Shown here: positions 1,949 to 20,456 of the stretch, one piece after another
Layout: each line of letters begins with the position of its first letter
Position numbering within the stretch: position 1 is the first letter of the stretch
Virus record (IMG/VR): IMGVR_UViG_3300021964_000026
Span: 38,932 to 102,931 of that record
Length of the DNA: 64,000 bases
Direction: 5' to 3' (one strand)
DNA from: a virus
Made by a program: the position numbers and the translations under genes
Notes under the pieces: generated by a model
Told to the model about the DNA's origin: nothing
Databases searched by the model: none
Seen by the model: the letters and a program-made list of their open reading frames with translations, nothing else

Positions 1949-2295
1949 CACGATACCTCCAATATGAATGAGAAGCGCACTTCGTTCTCCGCGCTCTTTG
2001 TGAGCGAATGAATGTCAGCGCGATACACAGGAACGAACTCTCCCGTAGACGCGTCTTTGTATTGCAGGTAAACCTCTTGGATAGGTTTGGCAAACACATG
2101 CGACGCGTTTAGCACACCTTCTACGAGAATGCTGGTGTCGTCAATGATTTGCACACGAGGCACGATGCGTGCCAGCGTGCGCGCACCGCCGTCTTCGGAT
2201 GTGGCGATGGTTCCGTCGCTACCGACATGCAACTCGTTGACAAGCGTCGCAAGGTGTTCCACCAAGCGTCTCTTGACAGCGTTGAGCATTGGCAT
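1948..2295 (-). CDS. Small tail-tip or baseplate-associated protein, unknown
   Basis: This 115-residue protein starts MPMLNAVKRRLVEHLATLV. It has a helical N-terminus followed by a beta-rich part (ARIVPRVQIIDDTSILVEGV) and ends SFILEVS. I chose the ATG at 2295, which overlaps the upstream stop as TGATG and has a GAGGAAGA ribosome site; a TTG one codon earlier is also possible. It sits between the hub-like protein and the fibre, so a tail-tip or fibre-attachment role is likely by position. I do not recognise the family. Confidence 0.6.
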   Translation of the reverse strand: MPMLNAVKRRLVEHLATLVNELHVGSDGTIATSEDGGARTLARIVPRVQIIDDTSILVEGVLNASHVFAKPIQEVYLQYKDASTGEFVPVYRADIHSLTKSAENEVRFSFILEVS

Positions 2296-3965
2296 CAAAT
2301 CTTCCTCCGTATTCGTCGTCCCTTCGTGGTTCGCATTTCGTGTGCGCGCGGTCGGAGCATACGCACCTCCGCCGCTGAACCGGGTATTGCGGCTCCGCTT
2401 ACCAAACTTACGCCTGTGAAAGTGGTGGCTGTTTTGCCGCTATACGATACGAGCGATTGGTCAGCGATGATGAGGTGGCCGCTTGAGTCAAAACCGTCGG
2501 TGCTGGCGACTGTGATAGCCCCCGCCGAGTGTGTGCCGCTGATGCGCTTCGTGATACCGAAGCCAAGTGCTGACCGACCCGAACCATATCCGCTGTTGCG
2601 GTGAGCCAAAAGCATGCCAGCGTGGATGTCCGAGCCTGTGTTTGTTGCGCTTGTTTTGGTTCTCGCCAACTTCCCGATAACAGGACGGATTCGCAGTATG
2701 CCGCGCACCTTCAACTCCGCGCTACCTACGCCGCTTTTGTTGACGCTAACAACCTGTTGAGTTCGGTCAGCCTCACCTGCTTCATCGTCTACATCTGCGT
2801 CGTTGCCGAAAGCGTTGACCACAGCCTCAAGTCCCGCTTCGTAAGAAATCATTTGAAAGTTTGAAGTGCCATCCGAACTGTGTTCCAACTCAATGATGGC
2901 TTGACGCGATTCGCTGAATGAGGATTTGTAGTCAACGACATCACCGGGTTCCATGTCCCAAGACTGCGCGTGAAGGTTTGACTGCAACGCACCTTGCGCT
3001 TTTTTGTTGAGGCGAAGCATTTGGTTTGCGCTACTTCGTGCTTTTGTTTCGTTGTTCACAGTAGGGTCTTTGACCTTCATTTGTTTGATTGAGCCTTGTC
3101 GCTTCTGTGCTTCCGCGTCATCTACTTCAACGCTGATGGCGTCGTTGAGAGCGATGCCTGTGCCGCGCATAAGAATGCGATTAGCGACATCGGTGATGGG
3201 GTCAACTTTGGTTTTGCCGATGCCGCGCTGGATACCCAACTCACGGTCTTTGATGTTGAAGATTTTAGGCGCGTATGTGAAGTTCCCAAAGCGGTCGTAA
3301 TACATGATGAAGTGGTCGTGCCGACCAACAAAGCGCACCGCTGTTGGCAGAACAGTTGAGTTGAAGTTTTGCGCAACGAAGAGCGTGCTGATACCTTTCG
3401 CTTGCACGCTGTTCAATCCATGCAACGCCTTCGTGAACAACTTCTCAACTAAATCGGTGCTTCGCAAACCAACGCTCACCGTTTGTCCAGCGCGAACATG
3501 ACTTGTCTCAATCATTTGATAGTCAGCCAAACTCTTTCCTCTCATGTTGATAAGTTGAACTTGCGCGCCTTTGGTTGCTGACGCAACACCCTGTGTTCGC
3601 AGACGAAGTGTTGGGTCGTTCGCATCAATCAACAACATGGGGCGAGATGATGACGCGCTTAGTTGTTCACCGTTGAAGAAAGGTGCGTCTTCGTGTGTTG
3701 TGTGCGCGAGTCTTACTGATGATTGTTCTTCGCTGATGCGATAACGACGAGGGTGAGTCGGTTGGAAATCCTCTTGGTTGGGTTTGCTCACTTGCGTTGT
3801 CTTGCTGGTGTCTTGAATTGTTTCGTAAACAACATGATGAACGGCGTTATCCACAAAGGTTGGGCTTTCAGCGATAGCCCCCACTTCGTCGTGAACTTCT
3901 TTTGCACGCCCAAGACGCTGACCCGCGTATGAAGTATTGGTTGGTGATGGAACGCTGAATGTCAT
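2295..3965 (-). CDS. Putative tail hub / tail-tip protein
   Basis: This 556-residue protein lies between the giant tail protein and the fibre genes. The segment MEPGDVVDYKSSFSESRQAI resembles the part of phage hub (gpD/gp27-like) proteins where a PGD-V loop begins a late beta barrel. The region around 470-540 (GAITVASTDGFDSSGHLIIA, then SYSGKTATTFTG) is a motif often found in phage tail proteins that link hub to fibre. Its ATG overlaps the stop of the giant gene (ATGA) with a GGTGGGTG ribosome site. Hub identity is inferred from weak motif likeness plus gene order; a tail-spike base is an alternative. Confidence 0.55.
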   Translation of the reverse strand: MTFSVPSPTNTSYAGQRLGRAKEVHDEVGAIAESPTFVDNAVHHVVYETIQDTSKTTQVSKPNQEDFQPTHPRRYRISEEQSSVRLAHTTHEDAPFFNGEQLSASSSRPMLLIDANDPTLRLRTQGVASATKGAQVQLINMRGKSLADYQMIETSHVRAGQTVSVGLRSTDLVEKLFTKALHGLNSVQAKGISTLFVAQNFNSTVLPTAVRFVGRHDHFIMYYDRFGNFTYAPKIFNIKDRELGIQRGIGKTKVDPITDVANRILMRGTGIALNDAISVEVDDAEAQKRQGSIKQMKVKDPTVNNETKARSSANQMLRLNKKAQGALQSNLHAQSWDMEPGDVVDYKSSFSESRQAIIELEHSSDGTSNFQMISYEAGLEAVVNAFGNDADVDDEAGEADRTQQVVSVNKSGVGSAELKVRGILRIRPVIGKLARTKTSATNTGSDIHAGMLLAHRNSGYGSGRSALGFGITKRISGTHSAGAITVASTDGFDSSGHLIIADQSLVSYSGKTATTFTGVSLVSGAAIPGSAAEVRMLRPRAHEMRTTKGRRIRRKI

Positions 3966-6900
3966 GCACCCACCCCGTTGTCTGTTCTGTCTCCTTCGCT
4001 ACTGTGGTTGCTCGTGTTGAGTTTGTCGCCAGCGTAGAGCGATTGCGTGTAGCGTGGTTGCACCGTGTAGTCAAGACGAACAAATGTATCCTGTCCTTCG
4101 TTCACCGATTGCCGACGAGCCGCGTCGCCACGGAAGTGTTGTAGCGTGTTGTTGGTCACAATCATGCGCGCGACAGGTTGAGTAGCCAGCGTTGTGAAAT
4201 CGCTGGCTTCACTACCGGGGATTTGAGGTCCGTTGCTGGTAGGGTCGCTTGTTGATGTCGTAAGGTCAAACAAGTAAACAGGCGCGTATGGTGGGTTGGA
4301 CGGAGCAGGGTTGCTGTTTCGCATGTAGGAAGAAGCGGCATCAGCGGCGCGTGCGTTGGGCGTGTCGTAGACAAACACACCGTAGCGACCGGCGGCAGTT
4401 GCGGACAGCACATGCGTCGTATCATCACGGAACAATTCAATGTGTTGGTTATCAAGAACGCGCACAGGGCGAACGAGGAACTTGATGGTCGTGTCCTTTG
4501 TGTTGGTTCTGTATGAGGTTGAGTCATGATTGCTGGTTTGATACGGATTGGTCGTGACACCGGAAGACGCGCCCCAATTAAGGTCGCTGATTGCCTCTCC
4601 ATCCGATGAAACTTCCATGATGTAAGTGCCACCCAGCGGAGGAATGCCATGCGTGGTTCCAAACTTCAAAACCTGCTTGGCTGATGAAAGGTTGAGCGTG
4701 TGGAGATTGAGGTTGTCAACCGCGCGGTTTGCTGTGCTAACACCACCCGCGAGAATAAAGCGTTGTCCAACCTGTCGGTCGGTGTGAACGCTGTTTGCTT
4801 CGGTGCTGGCGACAACATATCGTGGCGACATCTGTCCATCATTTTCAACAACACTCATGCCGTCAATTCCAATACGCGGTTTTGATTTTGCAATCGGTTC
4901 TTGCATGAAAGTGAAGTTTGATTTTTCAACATTGGTTCCAACATTTGCTTCGCGCTTAAGCAATCCATCATCACCTGCGAGTTCCAACTTTGCGCTAATT
5001 CCACGAGCCACTTCGTGAGATTCCAATTGAACATTTGAAGGGCGCAAAAAGCCACTCATGAACGGCGGCTCGCTGGTGTGATGAGAAAGCACCAAACCAA
5101 ACGGACGCATGTCTTCGGACACATCTTGGAGAATGTCTTCGTTGAAGTAAGTAGGATAGCGCACACCGCGTCCGTCTCCACGGTCGCCTACGCGCTTGGC
5201 TGTCGCAGGGTCAAAGAAATGAATGTGTGTTTCTGCGCTTCGTAGGTTGCTATCGGTAAACATCGTCTCGGCTACCTTTGTTCGGTCTGTTGCCCGGTAT
5301 GCATCCTCCGGGTCCCAAGACGGGCGGATGCCAAAGCCGCGCACAGGGAAACGACGAACCTCTTCACCGGTCGTGTTGCCCCACCAATCAATCATGTAGT
5401 GCGCTTGAGCCAATGCGAGATTTACGCGTTGGTCATCCGCGTCTGTCCCTGCTCTATGACCCGTTGGTGAATCAGCGTGGAACTTGCGAAGAGCGGTTGT
5501 CGGGTTGCGTATGTTGCGCACCGCACAACCAAACCCTTTCGTCATTCGGCGACCATCGCTGTATCGCACCTGTTGAAACTTAAGGTCGCTACCGATAAGC
5601 GCGGATGCGTTTGTCTGCCGCTCAATGATGCCGACATAATTTTGCTTGGTGGTTTCTGTTGTTGAACTGTTAGCACTTCCGTTTTGCACATTGGTGCGCG
5701 TCGTTGCATTTTGACTGCTGATAAACGGACCTTCGGCTTGGAAGTGATAGTAGATGTGTGGGTCGCGCAATCCTTGATTTGCTTTGATAGACCAGCGCGG
5801 TCGGTTGTAAGGTTGACGAACGGATATACGGTATCCCCACCCTGCTTGTTTGTGTGTTGCTTTAGTTTGAATAGTATCCGTTGTCGTTTCTACATCAGCA
5901 TTTGCGACAGTCAAACCCTTTGCATCCGATACCTGCTTGATGTTGTTGTCATCCCACTTGTCGCGCCAACCGGGTGCGGCTGTGCCGTAAAGCGAAAGCG
6001 AACTCATTTGCGCACCAAAACGATGACCACCCGGCCAAAATGCACCGAGGTTGTATTTGCGCGACTTTCCGTCTATCCCTGCTTGATTGGTGAGCGCGGC
6101 CACAGAATAAGTGTCAGCGATTGAACCATCCACATTGCTCGGTGATTTCATTCGGAACTTGAACGGACCGTCGCTCATGGCGTAGGTAAACTCGTGGTAG
6201 TGAATCATCTCGTAGTGTTCGGGCGCGTGGTTGTAGGCTTTCTTGTCAACCGCCGCATCACCTTTGTTGGTTCGGCTGTCCGAAAACCATGTCATCGGAC
6301 GACCGAGGTTGTAGTGCCATAGGCAAAGGTATGCATCGGGCAAATGTAGGCTGTTGGTGTCGCGCGTTCCGGACAGCAGTTGTGGCAAGTTGCGCGTAGC
6401 AACACTTGCTTGTGATTTGTTGTAGACTTCACCAGCACCGAGGTTGTTAAACTTGGACTTGATGCGGACGGTTGCGCCTTGAACAGCCGCGCTCCAAAAT
6501 CCGCTCGTGATGGCTGTCACGCTGTTGAACACAACAGGACCACTTGCGCTAAGACCGCTGATGTAGCCACGGTCTTCGTATGATGCGGTTTGCTCTACAC
6601 CACTATCATCAATGATAACAAGGTGTTGCGCATAGTAGTCAGCACCAGCAACAGGGAAAAGGTTGTTGTTGCGCACATACAGTTTGCTGTTTGATTGGTC
6701 GCCGTGTTCAACAGTCGCGGTAGGCGTAAGAGAAGTGAGGTAGTCCGTGTAAACATCAAGGTAGTGGGACGGGTATCCAAGCATTGTCGTTTGTGTTCCA
6801 ACTGCACCAAGCGTTGAACGACAGAAGAGGTAGTAGTCATCGGGGTGATAGTGTTGCGAACCTTTCCACGGCGCAGTTGCCGAAAAAATCGTAGAAGAAG

Positions 6901-9900
6901 CAAGCGCGGCACTCCACCACGGAACGGTCACGGTGTGGCCCGGTGTTGAGCGGTGGAACATGTTTGGATGATACGGTAGACTGCGACGCGTAAATGCACC
7001 CGAAGAAGTAGCATTGACACCGAATGGGTTGCTCAATCCGAGTGTGGGAATGTTGGTGAATTGTTCGCGCGTTGATGGGTCAATGTCCAAAATAACTTCG
7101 TTGAGGTAGATTTCACAACCGCGCACATCAGCCATTGTTGCTTCGGAAAGAATGAGGTCGCGGTCTTGCATAGCGACGACCGTAGCAAACAGTTGGTCGG
7201 TGAGTGTGCGCACCGTTGTGTTTGTCCCACCGGGGTCTTCGGGAGCATCGGTTGAAGCAAAGGTCGTGTTCTCGTTGTTCCCCATGAATTGTTTGCTGAA
7301 CAGGTTGGGTTGGATAACAATTTGATATGCGCCTACTTCTGCTGGGTCGGGGAAATGGAAGGCGGTGTTGTAGTTGGTTCCGCTTTCAAGTTGAATGCGA
7401 TGACCACCAGCGGCGTTGCATGATGCGCTGTCATCTGCGACGCCGTATCCATCAAAGCGCAACTTGGTTTCAGTCAACAGCGTAAATCCATCACCGTGAA
7501 TATCGCTTGGTGGGTTAGACGCGGTTGTTCCCGAAAACCACACAAGCGGGTTGGCAATGGTCTTGGTTGTGTCGTAGTCGGTTGCACCAAAGCATGCGCG
7601 ATTTGCTTGGTAGATTTGTTGATAGAGTGGGTGTGCGAGGTGGCCGGGAAGCATCGCCATCGTCGGCATGACATAGTGGTGTCCCATGCGCGGTAATGGC
7701 ATGGGCGTCAATTTGTTTGCCGCGCGCACCAAAGTTGCTGGGCTTGTTCCAGCCGCGAGCGAAGTCCAATCGGTGTGTGCTTTGTCGGGGCTGTTCCCAC
7801 TCACTTCGGCGTGGTCACGCAATCTGCGCGCCGCAAACTGTCGTGTAGACCCAGCAGGGATGTAGTAAGACGGTTTGATGGCGTCGTCTTCTTTGGCTGT
7901 AAAATCGGGCGCGAAGACAACACCTGTAAATCTGTGATAGGTCACACCCTCAATCACCACGGTTGTGTTGTTAGTAAAAGACGCGATTGTGCCATTGACT
8001 GACAGGAAGTAGCGTCCGTCCGGTGTCGGGTCTTGCTTCCAAATGTCAGCCGTGATGCTTTCATTGACGGTGATGTAGTCGTTGCCTTTGTCTTTGAATG
8101 TCAATCTGTTGAGCGTCATAGCATTGCTGACGATGCGCAACGGTTCGCGTTCCGTATAGGTGTAGCCCATCTTGGTGATGTGAAAATACAACGCGCGGTC
8201 GTGAGGCTCGTATGCGGTTTCAAGAATGTTGGTTGATTGCAACGCGTTGTTGCTGTCGGGGAAGTTGTTTGGGTTTTGATTGATGTGTTCGTAGCCATCC
8301 TGTTCCCAAAACGGTTCTGTTCGCGGTCGGTCGCTGTCCGATTCAAACGCTTGAGACACACCGCTTACCGGTTGACTTGGGTGTTGCAACCCGCCACCAC
8401 CCAGCGTTTCATGCTGGTAGGCTTGTAGGCGGTCAAAACCAGCGCGCACAAGAATGTTGCCGGGGATGTCATCGTGATTCGGCAACTGAATGCGCATGTT
8501 AGGAGAAACGCCCGAACCTGCGAGTGCGGGTGCAAGACCTTCGTTTTCTCGGTCATGCACCATTTCGTAGTCGCGAACAACAACACCCAGCGGTGAACCA
8601 CCGGTCAGTCGGTGTTGTTGACCCGTATCATCAACAACTATGATTTCGGTGAATTGGATTTCTTCGTTCGGTATGTTAAGCGCGTTTCGGACTTCGTAGG
8701 GGTATTGTTCAGCGAGTGCTGGATGAGCCAACTCTTGTGCTTGGATAATTGGATACATTGCCGCGTTTGTTGTTTCAAACGAAAAGCGCACATTGCCGTA
8801 GATGGTTTCACCAAAGCGAATGTATTCCGACCCAACCTTGTGAACCTGCCACGGCATTGAACCAAGCCCTCGCGCGTTTTGAGCAGGGAGTGTAAGGTTG
8901 CCTCCACCCATCCGTTTCCAAACAACATGCTCGGCGAAGAAATTGCGTGCGGCTAATCGTCCTTTGTAGTGCGCGTAAATGCCATCGCGGTGTGTTGAAT
9001 AAGTATCGTAGCCTGTGTTTTCGGTCTTGGCTGTTTCCGAATCAAACAGATTATCGTTTGGGTAGTGCGCGTTGTTGGGGTTTTCGGTCTTGTCAAAGAA
9101 CAAATCACCGGTAGGATAGAGGCAGGTTTCAGCCTGTGCAAGTTGTGAAGCAGTAGCCGCCGATGTTGTCCACAACGGGTTTGCGTCTGTTGGTTCAGTC
9201 ATGGTGGTGTCGTGCATTGCTTCTACATGCGGACCAGCGTTTGATTCAGCGTTGTAGCGGTCGTTGTTGAAACGGTCGTTGTGATACGCTGTGATGGTCC
9301 CGCCTTGCGTTCCTCCCCACTTGAGTTGAAGCATGTCTCCGCAGGTTTGTTGTCCGTTGCGCGCGGCTTTAGCAATGATAGGCAGGTCGCCTTCATAAGA
9401 AATAACAACAAAGTGTCGTTGATGCATTCCGACTGCATTGTGCGTGCTGGTTTTTGGCTCCCAAATATAATCGCCGTTTTCCAACTCTCCACCTTCTGCT
9501 ATGCGCAAAACCCACTCCATTGATTGAGGGTTATGACATGCGGTAGCCGCACCGTAAGGCGTAAAGCCCAACATTGGATGCCATGCGCCAAGACCAGCCG
9601 CAACTTTGTTGCTGATGTTGAGACTGTTGAGGTAGGAATAACGCTCACCATGCCAGCCGACAGCACCAACCGCGCGTGTTCGGTCTATGGCATCAACAAC
9701 GCCGTTAAAGTGGACTTGTGTTGACGCATAATGGTCAAACGGGCTGTTTGACATTTGCCCCGACGAAGTTGCTCCTGTGGCTCGCGAGCCGTCAACTGCG
9801 TTTTGAAAGCCGTTATCCCAGCGCAAATTGCCAGCCTTTGACCAAACAAACACTTTGTGACCTTCTCCCGTTACGCTGGTTACATCGCCCGTTCCGCTAA

Positions 9901-12900
9901 GGCTTGGTTGCTCCAATCGGTTTTGTCCGTTTCGGAAGTTCGCTCCAAGAATAAATGTTCCTTGCGCGACATCGTAGTTTGAATAATACCCGTAGTAAGA
10001 ATTGACTCCGTTGCTCACGCGTATCCAACCGTTTTCGGGTAGCGTCATCGGCAACGCTGTTCCTACGGAGACATGTCCGCCGCTTCCAGCGTCGGTGTAA
10101 GTGCCGAGGTCGCCAACATCAATCCAACCATAGCGGTCTTGCCGTTGCGCGTCTTGGAATGAAGGAAGGAAAGAACCACCAAGAGCCTTGAGATTTGACC
10201 GACCGGGCCATGTATTGATTGCCGCGGCAACAACTGCACCCAACTCTTCGCTGTTTTGACAGCGCGTTGCATCAATCAAGAACACATCGTCGGGAACATC
10301 AGCATCCAAGTCATGGTCGTAGTCTGTTAGCACTTGAGAACCAACCCGGAACATTGTAGCGTTGAGTCCAAGTCGGTCAATGTATTGCACCGACGCGTTT
10401 GCTGAATTGACCAGCGTGGCCGTGACAGGATGCGGTGGGTTTTTGCGCACGCTATTATCAAACCATGACCCTCCAACCGTATAACCTCCGTCAAGGTGGA
10501 AAATCAGTTTGTCTTCACGGAAGTTGCTATGCGATGTTGGAAATCGCGCAACTGCGGTATAATGAGAAAATGGATGACCGTATTCGTTCGCCGCGCTTTG
10601 CACCACCGAGTTTGCACCGAAAAAATGACTGCTAACATAACGCGCTTCAGTAGAAACAGTTTGATTAAACGCGCTGTTTGGAGAACCATAAGACGGCTCC
10701 CAATGTCGGAATGTTTCGTATGGGAACACATTGTTTGCACCGTATGCATTGGTTGGTGGCAAAAATTGATTTGCCGCGCCGTTAAGTGTTCCATTGCTCA
10801 ACTCGTTAGGGAAGAAATAACCCGACTCATTGCCTTGATTGAAGGTTGTTGCCATTGCACCATCAAGTGAGCAGTATTTTTTGAACGCGGCAGTCCATTT
10901 TGCCGACGGCTCAACTGATGTCGTTATGCTCGCGCTTTCTCCACTCCAATGTTTCGGGACTGCTTGACCCGGACCGAACACCATGTAGGCTACGCTGTTG
11001 GTTGAATCCGTGTAGCGTGCGTATGGATGAGCAAACCGAAGCACGACGGGTGTTGGTTGCGCGATGTTGACATTGGTGTAGGTGGTGTCGGGAATGGTGT
11101 GCGTGTTGTTATTGCCGTCAATGTCGGTGTTGAGAATGGCGTCTTGGTTGGCGAACGGTGGAGTCGCTTCTCCGCGATGTTGATTTGTAAGAACAGTAGC
11201 AGGGAACATAGCAAACAACGCGGTTGTGTCAAGAAGCGCGTAGGCTCCCATTTTTTCTCCGATGTCTTGTAGACCAGCACTCCCCGTTGGACCGCTTGAG
11301 TAGGGGTGTTTGTTGTGTGTGCTATAATCTACACGCGACCCATCGTTGATGTCCATAACAACACCGCTGAATCCGCCTCCAAAGTAAAGCGGCACATGGT
11401 GGTCAATGCTGTCTTGTGCGCCTCGGAAGTAAAGCAACGGGTTGCCTTTTCTGTTTGCGCGTAGACGCAACCCTTGAATGTCATTGACGAACTTGAATCG
11501 TTGAAGGATGAGATTGGTGTCAAGTGAGTCTTTGAAATCACCTTTGCTGTCGTCGTGATGCCACGCGAGTAGATGTCGCGCTACATCAGTTGGTGCATCA
11601 ATTGAACTCAACGCGGCGCAATGAATGTAAGTGTCTTCGTCAATGTCCATGCGTTTGAACGGCGACCATGAGCCGTCAATGGTTGTGCTACCTCCGAACT
11701 CGGTTGATGAGTCTTGATTGAGATTGCTACCACCGCTGATGTGTTGCAATTGCCACGCGTATTGACGACCAAGAACAGCAAAATGATGTGGGTCGCGCAT
11801 TTCAATTTGATAGGTGTCATACGCTGTTCCACTTGGGTAGGCTAAACTTCCGCTTTGCGGGTCAAGTTCGTAAGTTGCCGCTTCAAGCGAGGGCGTGATG
11901 TGGTCGCCTTCATATCGCGTATATTTGTCGCCACGCAAATGCTTCTGCCAATCGTCAGTAGGCACAGCGTTGTTTGTTTGGTCAATGAGAATCGGTGTTG
12001 CTGTGTTTGCGTTGCTTCCTTTGTAGCGCGTAGCAATGTTGAGAAGCGTGTAAGGGATGTATCCAACTTCCTCCATTCCTTCGCCTACATCATTTCCAAG
12101 ACCACCGAATTGTCCTCCCGAACTAAAAGAAGCGGAGATAGTATCGTGTTCTTGACTGCTGGCTTGCAAACCCCAATCGCGCGATAAAGAAGCGGAAAAC
12201 AATTTGTTCAACGGGATGATTTCTTTGTCGCTATTGAACTTGGTGATTTTGATAGCAGTCTGTGCGGCTTCACCCATGACTTCACCGTAAGTGCGACCGT
12301 CGGGTGCGCGCAAGTGTGAACAGTCAAAGTATTGGTCGTCTTCGTTTGGGTCTGCTGTGAAAGCGAAAGCGGTTGCCGCGGCAATCAATTCGTCAGTTAC
12401 GATGGTTGTTTGGTTGAGGTGAGGACTGATAATAACAGGAGCGCGTGTGTTAGACACGCTGGTAGGTCCACACTTGTCTTGACTGTTAAACCAAGTTGCA
12501 ACCATTGAATCTGCTTCTACACCTTCAACTCCACCGAAGATGTGAGGACCGCCGCGACCGTTGTGTGTGCGCGAAGTGTATGAAAAAACGACACCAACTT
12601 TGTCGTATTGACTTCTTGATGATGGGATAGCCAGCCAAACCAACCCACTATCGGGGAAGCCCATCCAACCCAACACATCGTCAACATCCGGCAAATGATG
12701 CCAAATACCGCCGTTGTGATAGCCGTAGCCGCTCGCGTCATGAATAGCCAACTGATTGTTTGCCATTGCTGTGTCCATTGTGACAGCGTATCCAGCGTTA
12801 GGTGTGTAGACGCCGCGCCATTTGTTGCCGCGCCAATTATAGTCTGTCGTTCCTGTGTAAAAGAACGGCGTTCCATCACCACCCTTGCCCCACATGTTTG

Positions 12901-15900
12901 CACCGATGGTGAAACCACCTTGTGCTATATCGCGGTCGTCAAAATGAATGAGCGTTTCTTCATCAATTGTGTTTGGCATAACCGAGTTGCGATGTGAAAA
13001 TGATTCACCCGCGCGTCGGTAGATGTAGCGAAGAATGTGAGACTTACCACGATGGTCAACCATTTTCAATCCGTAGAGTGGTTGAGTTCCAACTGATGCG
13101 TCGTTGACTTCTGTTGTCGGAACATACGAGTTGTATGTTTCAAAATAGGTGTCGCCTGTGGCGAGATAGTTGCCGTAAACCGAAGAAACAAAGCGTCCAG
13201 CACCCTTTCCGTCTTCACCAAAACCCCAATCGCCAGCATCGGGCGCAAAGCCGGGAACACCTGCGGCAACGATACCGCCGAAGTTTACTCTTGCGCGTGC
13301 ATAACTGCCGGTCTGTAATCCTTCACGGATGGTGAACTTTTGACCGCCGTTTTCAAACGATTCCATTGCACCTGTGTTTGAAGCGCGTCCTGTGGTTGTT
13401 CCTGTGTTGGGTGTTTCAAACCCTTCTGCGCTGTTGAAGTTGGTGGCGTATCCGAGGTGGAGGTTGGTGAAAAACTCGTCCGAGTCTTCATCCAATGCCA
13501 CATATTCGCGTAGAGTTGTGATGGGCGCAAACGGTTTGCCGTTTTTGTCAATCGGCATGGGTGCAGGGTGCATGTTTTCACCTGCAATTTCGGGTGGCGC
13601 GCAGTAGAAGTTGCGGAAACGACCACCATGCCCGATGAGGAATTGCGGTTTGTATTCTGCCTGTGCTTTGCTGTTGTCAAGCCACGCGCAAAAATTGCGG
13701 CTGGTTGCACCGGGAACGGTGCTGTGAACAACGATGCTGTATCCCTCATTGCCGTTTGCATCCTCAACAACGCGACCTAAATGAGCGCGTAGGTATCCCA
13801 TGTGAGAACCACGGTCAAATGATGTGAAGGCTGTGCGCGTGTTCCAAAACGGCGCGGGGTCATGCGTAGAGCCGGTCACGGCAAAGTCCGCGTGTTGGTG
13901 TGCGGATGTTGCGTCTGTTGGCTCTTGAGTGTCAATACCGCCTACGGAAATAGCGCGACGGTTGATGTCAAATCGTTCACCTTCACCTGCGTATTGGTCG
14001 GATGGTCGTCGTTGACTGCTACGACCGTTGAGCGCACCGCCTTGATTGATGAGACGAACAACTTCGCGAGCCGCCGCTTCAATGTCCGTGACACCTTCGC
14101 GCAACCCAATTTCACCCATGTCAATTGTGAGGCGGCGAACGAAGTCCATATCGGTCCAATGAGGTAGTTGGTTCAACCGAGCATCAACGATGGTGTTGTT
14201 TGTAGCACGCTTACCCTTCAAACAAAGGAAGGCCGAAATAACGCGTGTGCCTTCCGGTGTGTCAAAGAAAGTAGCCGAAAACTGATAGTGTCCACCGCTG
14301 TCGTCAATGATGGCCTCGGATGTGTCATGGTCAATTGTTTCGGCGTGGCGTAGAGCGGCTTTGTCAACATCAACAGTTGACTGCGCAACGCGTCCTTGAC
14401 CAAACTGCGTTGTTTCATCACCAAATGCTACGGTGTGTTCAGTTTGCCGCTTTGGTTTATTGTGTTTGGTTGCCGCAACATTGGATGTTGACATGAAGGA
14501 TTCATCCATGAGCCACCACGATTTGTGTGCGTAGGCTCCTTCAACAAATTGCGACTTACCTTCGTCTTTAATGAGGTTGTAAACAACGGTGTTGATGGTT
14601 TCCGCATGCGTGCTTGATGTCGTGGCTTTGTTTTTGTCTTGCGTCTTGAATCCAGCCGCTACATCAAGACCTTCAATCGTTGGTGTTGTTGCACTCGTTT
14701 GAACTTGCATGTGCAAGTCGTGGAACGCGATGAACTCACGGTCATGCTCTACATCGTAAAGCAACACTCGCGCGTGTGTTTCTGTGCTAAGGTAGGGGTC
14801 AAGGAACGCAACAACGGGTGCAGATGTGCTGTGTCCAAGTTCAGTCCAATTGAGTTCAATGGTTTTGTTCACATGTTGAACAAAGTTGCGAGCAGTTTCA
14901 AGACAAGTATCGCCAATAAGGAAGTTTTCAACAGGGAGAGTGTCGCGTGCTTCAACTCCAAGCGCACCCTTTCCACCATTGAAGCCCGACCATACTTCAT
15001 ATTCGTTGTAAACACCGCGCGATTTACAAAACATTCCCTCAATTGCGTGAGGATTGGTGTAGTGCATGTTCATCCAAACCGTATCACCGTAGCGCAATCC
15101 GCCGGGGCAGTAGGGGTTGTTCCATGTTGCGTTCGCGATACCGTCGGGTTGCTTGAGAGGTAGTTGAGTTGCGCTTGTTGCATAAATGCCAATGACGGTG
15201 AGTGTGTCCCCTGCCGCAAGACTTGGTGCGGTGCTGTCAAGAACCGGGTGAGCCACGACCTGCATTTCTCTTACCGTGGTTGTTGAGTTGTAAGTAATTT
15301 GATACTTACGACCTGTGGCTTCGTTAATAGCGGCAAACGCGTAGTTGGTTGGCAGATGTCCTTTGGGTAAATCACCTTCAAAAATAAAGGTCTGTGATGG
15401 TGAAAGCGGGTTAAGAAGAATAAGTTTGAGACGCGCACCTTTTGATTGAATGCGAGACAGATGAGGATTGGCTGTTGGTCCAGCCTTAAACTCAACCGCG
15501 CTGACATATTGGCGTAGGCCGTAGTCAAGGTTGCCTCCCTGTGTCATCACGCTTCCTCGGTCGTAGTAGAACGGTCGTCGGTATTCTTGAGCAGAAGAGT
15601 TGTAGTTGTCGTCGCCTGTAAGCGGGTATCCGTCTCCGTTTGGCAAAACACCAATGGTGATTTGAGAACCAACATCAAGCAAAGTGAAGAAGTCGGGACT
15701 TGAATGGCTTGCGAGTCCACTCAAAGAAAAATAACTGCCGCCCGCGTATTCGTAGTAAGCCCACTCACCGTTTCCAAGCACAACTTTACGCGCGCGTCGT
15801 GTGCTAACACCTTTGACCGTCCCAGCCGCGTTGAAGTTTGAATTGGGAATGCGCCCACTTCCTTCTGCGATGTAGACTCTCCTGTTGCTTCCTTGTCGGT

Positions 15901-18900
15901 CGTATCGCAACACCGTGGCGCGGATAGGCAGATTGTTGCTAAAACGATACTGATACTGTCCAAAGGCTTCGTAGTCGTTAGCGGCGTAGTTGGGCGCACG
16001 ACGACCCACAGGTGATGGGTTCCAAGCCTGTGCTGTCATTGTTGCATCCAAATGCAACTTCATGCTGTTGTCGGGGCCGGGGAACACACCTGCGTCTCGG
16101 TCTTCAAAGAATTGTTGAGGGAAAAGGGGGATTTCAACAAGCGCGCGAGTGCTGGCGTATTGTGTTCCCAACTGATAGTCGTGTTGAACAGAACCAATGG
16201 ACTGAAACAGCCGGTCGTTGACGGTTGTTCCATCCGCGCATATTGAAGAAGTTGCAAACAACGGGTCAAGCAAAACCAATTGACCTTCCTCAATTCTGCT
16301 TTTTGTGACCCAATCGGCAAACGATGCCGCTTCTTGTCCGTTAGCGAGTTTAAATGTCCCTGTTCCATGAACGAGTGTTCCGCTTGTAAAAGTGAAAGCG
16401 GTTCCGGTTTTGCTTGTGTATTCAGCACTTGCACCGTTCTGCAAATAAATACGACCGGTAGCAGGGAAGCAATAAGTCCCCCATGTTGCCAGCGATGTTC
16501 CCGCATTGTTCAATGCTTGAACCGACACGGTTCTCGCGGTGCTGTCCACTTCATTGATTTGCGCGGCACAATCATGACGCGTATTCCATCCGATGCGCGA
16601 TAATGTCGCGGGGTCCCATGTTGGTTTTGTGTTGACAGCACCTTGACCAGCACCACCGAGCGTGACCGAGACGACAGGCGCGCCCGGTTGAATCTCTTTG
16701 ACGATGTGCGAATCGGGACTTCCATCACCGCTATACGCCACAGTTTGGTCGGCGACATCGGACATCATACCCTGCCCCTCCATGATGAGGTAGCGTCCAG
16801 CACCGCTATCGTTGACTTGCATTGATGTGATACGCGCGGTAGATTGAATGTATTCAATGGTAAAGTAGGTGTTATCCGTAAAGTCCACAGTCGCGGGTGT
16901 TGCTCGCGATAACTGCATGGTGCGCTCGCGCTTTGTTGGTTGAACGATAAAGAGGTAGGAGTCGCCCTCTTTGTCGTTGTCAATGATGTCAAACATTTCA
17001 AACGCGCCGCCTTTTTGTGATGCGAACTGTTTGCTTTCTTGATAGTGAGTGGGTGATTCACCTACGGGTGGGTCGCTTGCGCCTCGTTGCATCGGTTGAA
17101 GGTGCAATTTGTGATAGGCTGACGGGTGGACTGTTGTTCCCACACCTTGTGGTGGCTTTCTTGGTTCATCATCGGATGTGCGCGGTGTGTAGTTGCTTGG
17201 GAGGTGCGACTCATCCAATTCATCGTTGTAAGCAATACCGCCTGTGTTGTCTCCGATAAGGTGGTGCGGCTTCATAACAACCTGTGCGTTGCCTACATCG
17301 CTTGAAGAAGCAACAATCACACCACCGGGTGCGTGGATGGTCGCGTTAGCACCAACAGCGTCAGCAATGTGTTCGGCTACGCGTTTTCCGTCAATCAAAG
17401 AACCTCCATCGGGGACAGTCTTGGTGATGAGAAGGGCTGGGTTGCTCAATCCCATTTTGCCGCCGGTGAGGTCAACAGCGTTGTAGTGGATTTCAACATA
17501 ACCAGCGGTGATACCCGACACTTCAAGAAGCGCGACACGAGATTCGGTTTCGGGTGTGAGGTGTGTTTTGTAGGCCGCATCGCTGGTTGAATCAACACCA
17601 ATGCCGCCACCCTTCAACAAAAACGGTTGAATGTCATCAACTGAAATCGCAATGACACCCGACCGCTTTCCATCAAGCGATGACAAACCGTTATCCACCA
17701 CACCGTTTGTTGTTGCTGATGTTCTAACATCCATGATTCGCGCGTTAAACGCTGTGTGTGTCAACGACACTTTGCTGTTAATCGGCATCACCTCTTTCAG
17801 TCCGAGGTATGAGCCAGCGAAGGTCACAAGAACATCATCGGCTATACCGTCAATGGTTCGCGTGATTTCCTGTTCATGGATGGGTGGAAGCATCCGCAAA
17901 AATGGGTGTCCTTCCCTGTGAGTCAATGTGTGTCGTCCTGTGTGGCCTGTCTTGAAGCGTTCAGCGATGGTCCACGATGTCGGCGCAAAACTGTTGGTGT
18001 TGACGGCAAGAGCGCGCGAATACATGAAGCCGTGAAACTCATTCGGGCTTTCATCAATCACCATCGCACCCGTTCGGTCAATTGCTTGACTCCCTGTGCC
18101 GAGCCGTTGAAACGGCTTTCCACTCTCGCTGTCAATCAACAAATCGGAGCGGATGAGAACCATTGCTGAATCGTTAGCGCGATGATAAGTTGCATCGTAT
18201 GCTGTGCGTGAATGAAGCACACCGCGCGAACCTGTGTCGGCTGAAACACCAAAGTCAAGGTGGATGCTGTCAACGGTGATGGTTCCGTTGGTGTTGATTT
18301 GCTTGAGACGAACGCGTTCGGGTGGGCTGTTGTTTTGCACACCTGTGAGAACATCTGTTGCTGTTGGATTGATGAGCAGGTTGAATGGCGTGTGAGCCAC
18401 GCTAATAACCTGCGCTCCCCCGCTATGCGCGGCGTTAGCAACGCGGTAGTTGCCGAGGCTTTCCAGCGTGTAGTTGCTCGCGAGCGTGTCGGACTTACCG
18501 CTTACCGTTTCGTAAAGCGTTTGACAAGCGGTGGCCCCAATGGTGATGGTGGTGTCGCCAGCAGACACATTTGAAGTCGCGTAAAACACAGTTTCGTCAA
18601 CGCTCACCGGCTCTTCAAAACGCCAAAGGCCCAGCGTGCTTGTAGAAAGCATGCATGGTTTAGCGCGCGATTCAATTGTTGAAACATCAGCCTTCCAATG
18701 AACGGATTCAATGTAGCCGCGATACTGACCACCTTCACCACCAATGAACAGGTCTTGGTCGTTGACATTGCATGTGTAGGATTTGTTGAGTTTGTGCGAC
18801 GCCATCAGTTCGCCGTTGACATACAGTTTAACCTGCTGTCCGTTGAACTCACCGGAGATGTGATACAATTCTCGCTGTCCAGCGTTGTAGCCCACATCAT

Positions 18901-19291
18901 TGCTGATGAAGGAACCCGCCGCCGTTGGATAATTGTTCGCGCTTGCGGCGATAGCGGAGGTTTTGTTGGTGAGTTGCACTTTAAACGAAGCGACACCGGG
19001 TGCATCAACGGTCCCCATTCTCAACTCAAACAGCCCTGCTTTGCTGGCAATAACACCACCGCAGTCGGGCGAAACCCAAGCCTCAACCGTGAACTGCTTG
19101 AGTGTTTGATTGTTGGCGTTGGCGAAACGATGGTTGTCGCCGTCTTGAAGAACAGGAGCAGATGAGCGCGCAACGCTACCGTTGAGTTCGCGCTTATGGC
19201 CTGTTTTGACAAAGTTGCCCTGTGGACAAACAACGCTGTCGCTTACGCCGTTGAAAAACAACGCGTGGCTTGACAGACCAATAACCGCCAC
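3962..19291 (-). CDS. Giant tail protein (5109 residues) with N-terminal LamG-like domain
   Basis: One uninterrupted frame of 5109 residues, roughly 560 kDa and 24% of the window. Residues about 70-240 look like a LamG/concanavalin-type jelly roll: TLKQFTVEAWVSP, then a strand pattern ending VKLYVNGELMASHKL, DLFIGGEGGQYRGYIESVHW and LGLWRFEEP. The rest is Asn, Thr, Gly and Asp rich, with many aromatic strands and no transmembrane segment that I can see. I find no catalytic motif. It lies between the distal tail protein and the hub, the place of central tail fibres or tail-tip J-type proteins, so it is probably a giant tail-tip adhesin. The start is GTG at 19291, right after the previous stop. 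Frame integrity over 15.3 kb argues strongly for function. Confidence 0.8.
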   Translation of the reverse strand: MAVIGLSSHALFFNGVSDSVVCPQGNFVKTGHKRELNGSVARSSAPVLQDGDNHRFANANNQTLKQFTVEAWVSPDCGGVIASKAGLFELRMGTVDAPGVASFKVQLTNKTSAIAASANNYPTAAGSFISNDVGYNAGQRELYHISGEFNGQQVKLYVNGELMASHKLNKSYTCNVNDQDLFIGGEGGQYRGYIESVHWKADVSTIESRAKPCMLSTSTLGLWRFEEPVSVDETVFYATSNVSAGDTTITIGATACQTLYETVSGKSDTLASNYTLESLGNYRVANAAHSGGAQVISVAHTPFNLLINPTATDVLTGVQNNSPPERVRLKQINTNGTITVDSIHLDFGVSADTGSRGVLHSRTAYDATYHRANDSAMVLIRSDLLIDSESGKPFQRLGTGSQAIDRTGAMVIDESPNEFHGFMYSRALAVNTNSFAPTSWTIAERFKTGHTGRHTLTHREGHPFLRMLPPIHEQEITRTIDGIADDVLVTFAGSYLGLKEVMPINSKVSLTHTAFNARIMDVRTSATTNGVVDNGLSSLDGKRSGVIAISVDDIQPFLLKGGGIGVDSTSDAAYKTHLTPETESRVALLEVSGITAGYVEIHYNAVDLTGGKMGLSNPALLITKTVPDGGSLIDGKRVAEHIADAVGANATIHAPGGVIVASSSDVGNAQVVMKPHHLIGDNTGGIAYNDELDESHLPSNYTPRTSDDEPRKPPQGVGTTVHPSAYHKLHLQPMQRGASDPPVGESPTHYQESKQFASQKGGAFEMFDIIDNDKEGDSYLFIVQPTKRERTMQLSRATPATVDFTDNTYFTIEYIQSTARITSMQVNDSGAGRYLIMEGQGMMSDVADQTVAYSGDGSPDSHIVKEIQPGAPVVSVTLGGAGQGAVNTKPTWDPATLSRIGWNTRHDCAAQINEVDSTARTVSVQALNNAGTSLATWGTYCFPATGRIYLQNGASAEYTSKTGTAFTFTSGTLVHGTGTFKLANGQEAASFADWVTKSRIEEGQLVLLDPLFATSSICADGTTVNDRLFQSIGSVQHDYQLGTQYASTRALVEIPLFPQQFFEDRDAGVFPGPDNSMKLHLDATMTAQAWNPSPVGRRAPNYAANDYEAFGQYQYRFSNNLPIRATVLRYDRQGSNRRVYIAEGSGRIPNSNFNAAGTVKGVSTRRARKVVLGNGEWAYYEYAGGSYFSLSGLASHSSPDFFTLLDVGSQITIGVLPNGDGYPLTGDDNYNSSAQEYRRPFYYDRGSVMTQGGNLDYGLRQYVSAVEFKAGPTANPHLSRIQSKGARLKLILLNPLSPSQTFIFEGDLPKGHLPTNYAFAAINEATGRKYQITYNSTTTVREMQVVAHPVLDSTAPSLAAGDTLTVIGIYATSATQLPLKQPDGIANATWNNPYCPGGLRYGDTVWMNMHYTNPHAIEGMFCKSRGVYNEYEVWSGFNGGKGALGVEARDTLPVENFLIGDTCLETARNFVQHVNKTIELNWTELGHSTSAPVVAFLDPYLSTETHARVLLYDVEHDREFIAFHDLHMQVQTSATTPTIEGLDVAAGFKTQDKNKATTSSTHAETINTVVYNLIKDEGKSQFVEGAYAHKSWWLMDESFMSTSNVAATKHNKPKRQTEHTVAFGDETTQFGQGRVAQSTVDVDKAALRHAETIDHDTSEAIIDDSGGHYQFSATFFDTPEGTRVISAFLCLKGKRATNNTIVDARLNQLPHWTDMDFVRRLTIDMGEIGLREGVTDIEAAAREVVRLINQGGALNGRSSQRRPSDQYAGEGERFDINRRAISVGGIDTQEPTDATSAHQHADFAVTGSTHDPAPFWNTRTAFTSFDRGSHMGYLRAHLGRVVEDANGNEGYSIVVHSTVPGATSRNFCAWLDNSKAQAEYKPQFLIGHGGRFRNFYCAPPEIAGENMHPAPMPIDKNGKPFAPITTLREYVALDEDSDEFFTNLHLGYATNFNSAEGFETPNTGTTTGRASNTGAMESFENGGQKFTIREGLQTGSYARARVNFGGIVAAGVPGFAPDAGDWGFGEDGKGAGRFVSSVYGNYLATGDTYFETYNSYVPTTEVNDASVGTQPLYGLKMVDHRGKSHILRYIYRRAGESFSHRNSVMPNTIDEETLIHFDDRDIAQGGFTIGANMWGKGGDGTPFFYTGTTDYNWRGNKWRGVYTPNAGYAVTMDTAMANNQLAIHDASGYGYHNGGIWHHLPDVDDVLGWMGFPDSGLVWLAIPSSRSQYDKVGVVFSYTSRTHNGRGGPHIFGGVEGVEADSMVATWFNSQDKCGPTSVSNTRAPVIISPHLNQTTIVTDELIAAATAFAFTADPNEDDQYFDCSHLRAPDGRTYGEVMGEAAQTAIKITKFNSDKEIIPLNKLFSASLSRDWGLQASSQEHDTISASFSSGGQFGGLGNDVGEGMEEVGYIPYTLLNIATRYKGSNANTATPILIDQTNNAVPTDDWQKHLRGDKYTRYEGDHITPSLEAATYELDPQSGSLAYPSGTAYDTYQIEMRDPHHFAVLGRQYAWQLQHISGGSNLNQDSSTEFGGSTTIDGSWSPFKRMDIDEDTYIHCAALSSIDAPTDVARHLLAWHHDDSKGDFKDSLDTNLILQRFKFVNDIQGLRLRANRKGNPLLYFRGAQDSIDHHVPLYFGGGFSGVVMDINDGSRVDYSTHNKHPYSSGPTGSAGLQDIGEKMGAYALLDTTALFAMFPATVLTNQHRGEATPPFANQDAILNTDIDGNNNTHTIPDTTYTNVNIAQPTPVVLRFAHPYARYTDSTNSVAYMVFGPGQAVPKHWSGESASITTSVEPSAKWTAAFKKYCSLDGAMATTFNQGNESGYFFPNELSNGTLNGAANQFLPPTNAYGANNVFPYETFRHWEPSYGSPNSAFNQTVSTEARYVSSHFFGANSVVQSAANEYGHPFSHYTAVARFPTSHSNFREDKLIFHLDGGYTVGGSWFDNSVRKNPPHPVTATLVNSANASVQYIDRLGLNATMFRVGSQVLTDYDHDLDADVPDDVFLIDATRCQNSEELGAVVAAAINTWPGRSNLKALGGSFLPSFQDAQRQDRYGWIDVGDLGTYTDAGSGGHVSVGTALPMTLPENGWIRVSNGVNSYYGYYSNYDVAQGTFILGANFRNGQNRLEQPSLSGTGDVTSVTGEGHKVFVWSKAGNLRWDNGFQNAVDGSRATGATSSGQMSNSPFDHYASTQVHFNGVVDAIDRTRAVGAVGWHGERYSYLNSLNISNKVAAGLGAWHPMLGFTPYGAATACHNPQSMEWVLRIAEGGELENGDYIWEPKTSTHNAVGMHQRHFVVISYEGDLPIIAKAARNGQQTCGDMLQLKWGGTQGGTITAYHNDRFNNDRYNAESNAGPHVEAMHDTTMTEPTDANPLWTTSAATASQLAQAETCLYPTGDLFFDKTENPNNAHYPNDNLFDSETAKTENTGYDTYSTHRDGIYAHYKGRLAARNFFAEHVVWKRMGGGNLTLPAQNARGLGSMPWQVHKVGSEYIRFGETIYGNVRFSFETTNAAMYPIIQAQELAHPALAEQYPYEVRNALNIPNEEIQFTEIIVVDDTGQQHRLTGGSPLGVVVRDYEMVHDRENEGLAPALAGSGVSPNMRIQLPNHDDIPGNILVRAGFDRLQAYQHETLGGGGLQHPSQPVSGVSQAFESDSDRPRTEPFWEQDGYEHINQNPNNFPDSNNALQSTNILETAYEPHDRALYFHITKMGYTYTEREPLRIVSNAMTLNRLTFKDKGNDYITVNESITADIWKQDPTPDGRYFLSVNGTIASFTNNTTVVIEGVTYHRFTGVVFAPDFTAKEDDAIKPSYYIPAGSTRQFAARRLRDHAEVSGNSPDKAHTDWTSLAAGTSPATLVRAANKLTPMPLPRMGHHYVMPTMAMLPGHLAHPLYQQIYQANRACFGATDYDTTKTIANPLVWFSGTTASNPPSDIHGDGFTLLTETKLRFDGYGVADDSASCNAAGGHRIQLESGTNYNTAFHFPDPAEVGAYQIVIQPNLFSKQFMGNNENTTFASTDAPEDPGGTNTTVRTLTDQLFATVVAMQDRDLILSEATMADVRGCEIYLNEVILDIDPSTREQFTNIPTLGLSNPFGVNATSSGAFTRRSLPYHPNMFHRSTPGHTVTVPWWSAALASSTIFSATAPWKGSQHYHPDDYYLFCRSTLGAVGTQTTMLGYPSHYLDVYTDYLTSLTPTATVEHGDQSNSKLYVRNNNLFPVAGADYYAQHLVIIDDSGVEQTASYEDRGYISGLSASGPVVFNSVTAITSGFWSAAVQGATVRIKSKFNNLGAGEVYNKSQASVATRNLPQLLSGTRDTNSLHLPDAYLCLWHYNLGRPMTWFSDSRTNKGDAAVDKKAYNHAPEHYEMIHYHEFTYAMSDGPFKFRMKSPSNVDGSIADTYSVAALTNQAGIDGKSRKYNLGAFWPGGHRFGAQMSSLSLYGTAAPGWRDKWDDNNIKQVSDAKGLTVANADVETTTDTIQTKATHKQAGWGYRISVRQPYNRPRWSIKANQGLRDPHIYYHFQAEGPFISSQNATTRTNVQNGSANSSTTETTKQNYVGIIERQTNASALIGSDLKFQQVRYSDGRRMTKGFGCAVRNIRNPTTALRKFHADSPTGHRAGTDADDQRVNLALAQAHYMIDWWGNTTGEEVRRFPVRGFGIRPSWDPEDAYRATDRTKVAETMFTDSNLRSAETHIHFFDPATAKRVGDRGDGRGVRYPTYFNEDILQDVSEDMRPFGLVLSHHTSEPPFMSGFLRPSNVQLESHEVARGISAKLELAGDDGLLKREANVGTNVEKSNFTFMQEPIAKSKPRIGIDGMSVVENDGQMSPRYVVASTEANSVHTDRQVGQRFILAGGVSTANRAVDNLNLHTLNLSSAKQVLKFGTTHGIPPLGGTYIMEVSSDGEAISDLNWGASSGVTTNPYQTSNHDSTSYRTNTKDTTIKFLVRPVRVLDNQHIELFRDDTTHVLSATAAGRYGVFVYDTPNARAADAASSYMRNSNPAPSNPPYAPVYLFDLTTSTSDPTSNGPQIPGSEASDFTTLATQPVARMIVTNNTLQHFRGDAARRQSVNEGQDTFVRLDYTVQPRYTQSLYAGDKLNTSNHSSEGDRTDNGVGA

Positions 19292-19292
19292 T

Positions 19293-20456
19293 TCACGACC
19301 CCACTATGAAATCAATTGGCATGAAGGTCAATGAGCCTTCGTAAACATTCTCGCCAGCCATGTAGTTGAACGACATCGCGACAACTGTTCCGGAGATGCC
19401 TGTGAACTTACTTGTCGGGTTGAACTCAACACCGACGGGTTGATTGTTTGCCAACGCGTCTTGTTCGTCAGCATCCGCGCGCCCTGTGACCATGATGAGA
19501 TTGCGTTCGGTGTAGTCATCGGAGGCGGCTGTGCTGGTGATGAGTGAGTTGTAAGGGATTTGGATACCCACGATGTAGTCAGCCGTTTGTTTGTTTAAGA
19601 GACTCGCGTCTGCTTCAAAAATAGGGTCGTCGTCGGGTGTGTTGGCGATGGCTCCCGATGCACCAAGAAGGCTGGCGTTGCCGACATACGCGATGAGGTC
19701 TTGCAACTTATCACCCGCGCTACGGCACGACTTTGCTTGACCGCCAGCGCACACCTCAAACAACGGTGCTTTTGTAGCCAACCCCTTGCTGAAAAACGGT
19801 GTTTCGTTGTTGCCGCCAGCCCCTTTGTCCACTTGAGTGAAAGTGAGTTTTGCGTTGTTGGTCAATTCGCCGTTGCTGGTGGTGATAGTGAACGCGCTAC
19901 TGAAAGTTGTGCCTGTGGTGCTGACTTGTCGCGGGCTAAAGTCGGCGGCTTCACATGCGGTCTTGACAGCCGCCGCCAAGCCATCGTCGGTGGTGATGCC
20001 TTGAATGCCAACGGTCACGGTGGGTGGAACATTGATGTCGCTATGGGACGCTGTGCTACTGTCAAATTGGATTTTGATTGGGTCGCGCGTTGTGTTCTCA
20101 CCGGTGTAGGTTGATTCAATTGAAAAGGATTGACCGTTGAGGTCGCTCAATGAAACCGATGGACTGCTCCCACTCAAGTAGGATTGACGCGTTCCTCCGT
20201 CGCTGTTTGCTAACGCGCTAAAATCAATTGACGCTTTTGCCGCAACCGACTCAAACTCACTCGCCGCGCAATCGTCGTCAGCGAGAATGACATTGATTTT
20301 GAAGTCAGCCGTGACCATGTTGAGGTCAATACCGTAGCGTTCGCCAAGCACAGGCATTGGCATAACAGGAACGCTACGCGTGATGTTCATGCTGTAATCG
20401 GTCGCATCAACGGTCATGATGGTCCCGTCGTTGCGAATCAACCGTATTTTCGTCAA
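19293..20456 (-). CDS. Probable distal tail / tail-tip protein
   Basis: This 387-residue, beta-rich protein directly follows the tape measure gene, the usual place of distal tail proteins in siphoviruses. It opens with TKIRLIRNDGTIMTVDATDY and contains a Thr/Asn/Ser-rich middle and a C-terminal strand set (GVEFNPTSKFTGISGTVVAM). The start is TTG at 20456: it overlaps the tape measure stop as TTGA and has a perfect AGGAGGT ribosome site seven bases upstream. Cys occurs only in isolated positions. The assignment is mainly by order; a tail-tube-like accessory ring is an alternative. Confidence 0.5.
   Translation of the reverse strand: MTKIRLIRNDGTIMTVDATDYSMNITRSVPVMPMPVLGERYGIDLNMVTADFKINVILADDDCAASEFESVAAKASIDFSALANSDGGTRQSYLSGSSPSVSLSDLNGQSFSIESTYTGENTTRDPIKIQFDSSTASHSDINVPPTVTVGIQGITTDDGLAAAVKTACEAADFSPRQVSTTGTTFSSAFTITTSNGELTNNAKLTFTQVDKGAGGNNETPFFSKGLATKAPLFEVCAGGQAKSCRSAGDKLQDLIAYVGNASLLGASGAIANTPDDDPIFEADASLLNKQTADYIVGIQIPYNSLITSTAASDDYTERNLIMVTGRADADEQDALANNQPVGVEFNPTSKFTGISGTVVAMSFNYMAGENVYEGSLTFMPIDFIVGS

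Follow-up and report, generated by a model that had tools for sequence, protein, structure and literature searches.

A conserved 5109-residue tail-module protein with a LamG lectin-type start, kept across three tape-measure length classes of magrovirus-like viruses

We show that a giant protein of 5109 residues, which begins with a LamG domain of the lectin type, is encoded by a single conserved gene that evolves under uniform purifying selection and makes up 15 percent of a viral genome. This gene is embedded in a tail module, where the genes of a protein in the connector position and of a hub-like protein flank it. The gene lies in the window analyzed here, a stretch of 64,000 nucleotides that covers positions 38,932 to 102,931 of IMG/VR record IMGVR_UViG_3300021964_000026. 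Judging from sequence, a conserved tail-tip or baseplate body that carries a lectin-type domain describes the protein better than a repeat-rich adhesin or a central needle does. Probably, it is a structural component of the virion and supplies the main body of the distal tail, at the tail tip or baseplate, in an archaeal siphovirus of the magrovirus-like kind; its virion location, shape and oligomeric state are inferred. The features of the tail module, in late-strand order, are as follows.

23797..25743, minus strand: tail tube protein, 648 aa (Pfam Phage_tube_2, E 3e-9; hhalign to HVTV-1 gp128, 96%)
20453..22156, minus strand: tape measure protein, 567 aa (PHROG; hhalign to HVTV-1 gp131; seven transmembrane-like segments)
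19293..20456, minus strand: 387-aa protein in the tail-connector (Dit/BTC-like) position, directly after the tape measure
3962..19291, minus strand: gene of the giant, putative tail-tip protein, 5109 aa, GTG start (intact relatives, dN/dS)
18698..19126, minus strand: LamG / ConA-like lectin domain, residues 56-198 of the giant (Pfam PF13385, AlphaFold model, Foldseek)
2295..3965, minus strand: tail hub-like protein, 556 aa (orthologues match Phage-tail_3 and YQBQ)
1948..2298, minus strand: conserved tail-module protein, 116 aa (beside the hub in 42 loci)
2..1951, minus strand: tail fibre gene, 889 aa in full (PHROG tail fiber, E 2.2e-12; extends left of the window to G000:C1:38213)

The uninterrupted 15.3-kb frame noted in an earlier, sequence-only reading of this DNA was confirmed by the open reading frame listing, which gives 5109 codons to the stop on the minus strand from a GTG start; the plus strand across 3962-19291 holds many stops. 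The same reading had recognized a LamG-like jelly-roll at the N-terminus, and two lines of evidence agree with it. Pfam Laminin_G_3 (PF13385) matches residues 56-198 with an E of 2.7e-10, a match that passes the curated cut-off, and the AlphaFold model of residues 1-1200 (mean pLDDT 67.5), a region predicted to be beta-rich, contains a LamG-like jelly-roll whose Foldseek match is neurexin LNS2 (TMt 0.56). With both the family match and the fold present, the protein belongs among the LamG / ConA-like lectin domain proteins, and the domain recurs in six of seven N-terminal pieces of its relatives. Fold matches to botulinum receptor-binding domains and to PAPP-A reflected only the common LamG-type fold. 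Beyond LamG, searches of Pfam, PHROG and NCBIfam found no further domain, save one weak isolated match in a relative; profiles of residues 1-1200 and 3910-5109 had no sequence match in the PDB, and no transmembrane segments were predicted. The predicted model of residues 3910-5109 has a mean pLDDT of 41 and no usable fold, and the fold that ranked first against it, that of a phage tail tube (E 0.098), received no support from a profile comparison with the virus's own tube. The description of the protein as Asn/Thr/Gly-rich was right as to the existence of a bias and overstated as to its size, which is mild (G 9.1, A 9.0, T 8.8, S 7.7 and N 6.0 percent).

A protein scan of viral contigs with the giant recovered 70 loci, and scans with its parts recovered 310 related stretches for the N-terminal part and 316 for the C-terminal part. 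Of the 70 loci, all in other IMG/VR contigs, 36 have the whole frame intact; there it spans 5098-5980 aa with 43-94% identity end to end in collinear alignments, and it is intact in larger records as well. Relatives were confined to viral contigs, with none in 50,697 phage records or in GTDB genomes. Against four close relatives, dN/dS is 0.08-0.13 for the whole gene and 0.05-0.19 in 500-codon windows. Window identities to one relative (L007) are 74-95% and fairly even over the length, with no hypervariable end, and insertion hot spots fall between conserved blocks. Because purifying selection is even and conservation uniform, the protein behaves as a scaffold rather than as a repeat adhesin or receptor-binding tip. 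A sequencing merge, which the sequence-only reading had named as its own refutation, is ruled out by the 36 complete collinear relatives and by a dN/dS of about 0.1 throughout; since these frames come from contigs of many metagenomes and from larger records too, we regard an assembly or sequencing artefact as virtually inconceivable. In UniProt, entry A0A1B1IU10 (BFVD) has 36% identity to the giant over 1308 alignment columns (E 1.7e-98) and is a direct homologue of its N-terminal part, the entry being a piece without a named function.

The surroundings of the gene are those of a tail module. On the late strand, the tube gene is followed by small genes, the tape measure, the 387-aa protein, the giant, the 556-aa protein, the 116-aa protein and the 889-aa fibre; neighbouring genes touch or share a few bases, and their order is the same in the relatives examined. 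That the tape measure is only 567 residues long, as the sequence-only reading had it, was upheld by the PHROG family for tail length tape measures (E 5.9e-7) and by comparison with the annotated HVTV-1 tape measure gp131 (hhalign probability 97.6%, E 3.6e-12). The 387-aa protein, whose copy in the window has no family match, is placed by its position. The hub families Phage-tail_3 (best E 2.7e-5) and YQBQ (best E 4.1e-6) were hit by orthologues of the 556-aa protein, which itself has a weak profile similarity to the HFTV1 hub gp44 (20.6%). In the 889-aa fibre, the N-terminal ~420 aa are conserved and the remainder is variable or missing among the relatives compared; this fibre, with its variable C-terminus, is the likely host-range determinant.

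Several other roles can be considered for the giant. It could be an adhesin, a long side fibre in which domains strung one after another reach toward the host, over as much as ~200 nm by the rough rule of ~4 nm per 100 residues. Its size, the LamG domain at one end, the mild G/T/S/N bias and the beta-rich prediction for residues 1-1200 would all suit such a role. However, tandem repeated domains, the mark of repeat-rich giant adhesins, are absent: the internal repeat search that the sequence-only reading had proposed as a check found none, either by all-against-all comparison of profile windows or by a tandem-repeat search. Purifying selection is even with no hypervariable end, and the module already has a separate, typical tail fibre, so that the variable, receptor-type end sits in the neighbouring 889-aa gene. 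The proposal of a giant adhesin is thus not borne out by these data, and we consider it unlikely. The alternative of a central tail needle, made in the same reading, is weakened. Siphophage Tal proteins usually come directly after the connector-position protein, and the giant, with its great size, occupies just that place, so it could itself be the central hub or needle (gpJ/Tal-like), with the 556-aa protein as an accessory. Yet the Phage-tail_3 and YQBQ signatures sit in the orthologues of the adjoining 556-aa protein, and the giant starts with LamG instead of a gp27-like domain and matched no hub in any library scanned; a hub role is therefore improbable. Even less credible is a polyprotein that is cut after translation into several tail-tip proteins. 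Its length, the position of the insertion hot spots between conserved blocks and the prohead protease encoded by the virus would be compatible with processing, but cleavage-site evidence is lacking and the gene is a single frame in all 36 complete relatives.

For the tail-tip or baseplate body that we prefer, the trimeric baseplate of HFTV1 offers a model. By this analogy, several copies of the giant, perhaps three, of ~0.56 MDa each, would assemble at the tube end around connector and hub and carry the variable 889-aa fibres. The LamG domains might add weak, generic binding to cell-surface glycans, a predicted activity since LamG alone is no proof of glycan binding, while specific host recognition would fall to the fibre and opening of the tube to the hub and the tape measure. 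The tape measure varies about fourfold between clades and the giant persists in all of them, so the size of the tip would be set independently of the length of the tube.

The record, 102,931 bp long with early genes on the plus strand and late genes on the minus strand, agrees with the genome size of ~90-110 kb and the oppositely directed replication and morphogenesis genes described for Magrovirales (PMC12999244, PMC10768690). It encodes DNA_pol_B (3.9e-31), ERCC4 (3.6e-8), the pyrimidine dimer glycosylase Pyr_excise (1.3e-8) and helicases, together with an HK97-type capsid, portal, terminase and prohead protease; no tail sheath family was found among the tail genes scanned. A viral chaperonin, Cpn60_TCP1 (2.3e-116), is present here and in nine of nine related records, and it shares at most 38% identity over full length with cellular archaeal chaperonins, with no favoured lineage. 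ATP-dependent DNA ligase, typical of almost all Magrovirales, had no PF01068 match in the record, which may be incomplete. Save for this missing ligase, the sequence of the record has magrovirus gene content and fits Magrovirales (PMC10768690, PMC12999244, PMC10160649). Magroviruses are viruses of planktonic marine archaea, and the host of Magrovirales is given as Poseidoniales. Upstream of the terminase block, the minus strand also holds a 2310-aa ORF (56065-62997) that lacks a convincing family match and, at 58076-58169, includes a perfect 42-bp tandem repeat.

A tally of auxiliary metabolic genes included Laminin_G_3 proteins from four magrovirus groups (PMC10160649). They share the Pfam domain and the kind of virus with our window; however, what counts there as a metabolic gene is here the start of a tail-module protein of 5-6 thousand residues, and part of those proteins are probably this giant tail gene. 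In the accessible literature the LamG part of the giant is at most catalogued among metabolic genes, although the virus group is widespread in the sea. Assigning it to the tail module corrects the metabolic interpretation and indicates what these viruses, known only from metagenomes, are likely to use for attachment.

Two archaeal viruses frame the comparison. HFTV1, an archaeal siphovirus, carries three fibres and a trimeric hub that includes a carbohydrate-binding domain (PMC12494034), and its baseplate (connector gp41, hub gp44, fibre gp42) resembles the tail end in the window in outline. In contrast, the HFTV1 hub has 954 aa and no giant stands between gp41 and gp44, and the giant has no sequence similarity above noise to HFTV1 tail proteins. 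In HVTV-1 (Druskaviridae), the tube, the tape measure and two head-completion genes are homologous to those of the window and lie in the same order, whereas the HVTV-1 proteins encoded after the tape measure have 151-524 aa, with no counterpart of the giant detected, and nothing in the part of the window downstream of the tape measure aligns to HVTV-1 above noise in hhalign. Between portal and prohead protease, a 2015-aa ORF without a family match (33083-39130, minus strand) occupies the position taken in HVTV-1 by gp115 (1313 aa, annotated 'zeta toxin'); the ORFs of relatives at this position have 1817-1895 aa. A LamG-like jelly-roll in a baseplate protein also occurs in the baseplate wedge initiator of cyanophage ACG-2014f (Foldseek E about 5e-6); this is a different type of phage and a different protein from the giant, and the match appears limited to the LamG fold.

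In most relatives, the tape measure was located by a C-terminal motif, approximately GxTDRxDKxxLAxEI; a 122-aa frame near a contig edge (L121) was set aside as truncated. The 81 sequences fall into length classes of 517-609, 273-451 and 136-162 aa. On a tree of 81 distinct N-termini of the giant, the three classes form three clades and need two changes, the minimum. Retention of the giant through such large changes in tape-measure length was unexpected: it is kept in all three classes. Several transmembrane-like segments are present in long tape measures and none in the mid and short examples checked, and a search of whole records with the long tape measure yielded only the short frame in short-class genomes. 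The 387-aa gene, single in the window, is represented by two longer copies in the short clade: two such genes are present in all 22 short-class loci and one in the 89 other loci (some loci come from the same contig), and in some short-class members one of the copies carries a LamG insert (E 1.9e-16).

HFTV1 provides a scale for these lengths, as its tail has 11 tube rings and measures 56 nm (PMC12494034), which with a tape measure of 341 aa gives ~0.16 nm per residue. Applied here, and taking tape-measure length only, this scale predicts a tail of ~85-93 nm for the window and of at most 22-27 nm for the short class. The sequence-only reading had raised the possibility of a tip longer than the tube. 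Our survey makes this more plausible: the tip may exceed the tube, most plausibly in the sister clade with tape measures of 136-162 residues. It is tempting to go further and imagine, as a tentative scenario that we consider somewhat short of probable, a stepwise shrinkage of the tube from ~85-100 nm to ~20-27 nm or less by tape-measure scaling, within one archaeal virus group that kept a tip protein of 5-6 thousand residues. In the short clade the tip would then be the larger part of the tail, and loss of tape measure, with duplication of the connector gene and gain of a lectin domain, would amount to a transition from a siphovirus to a podovirus-like form. The three tape-measure classes are a natural experiment on tail shortening. 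A protein other than the tape measure could also set tube length in the short class. In one short-class contig, an 856-aa helix- and Met-rich ORF lies between capsid and head-completion genes (L027 contig, L274:2069-4639). As a replacement tape measure it is not a general substitute, since no such ORF is present at that place in L073, a locus from the same clade. Loci that combine a 136-162-aa tape measure with two connector-like genes include L021, L022, L027, L028, L032, L060, L063, L064, L073 and L075, among others.
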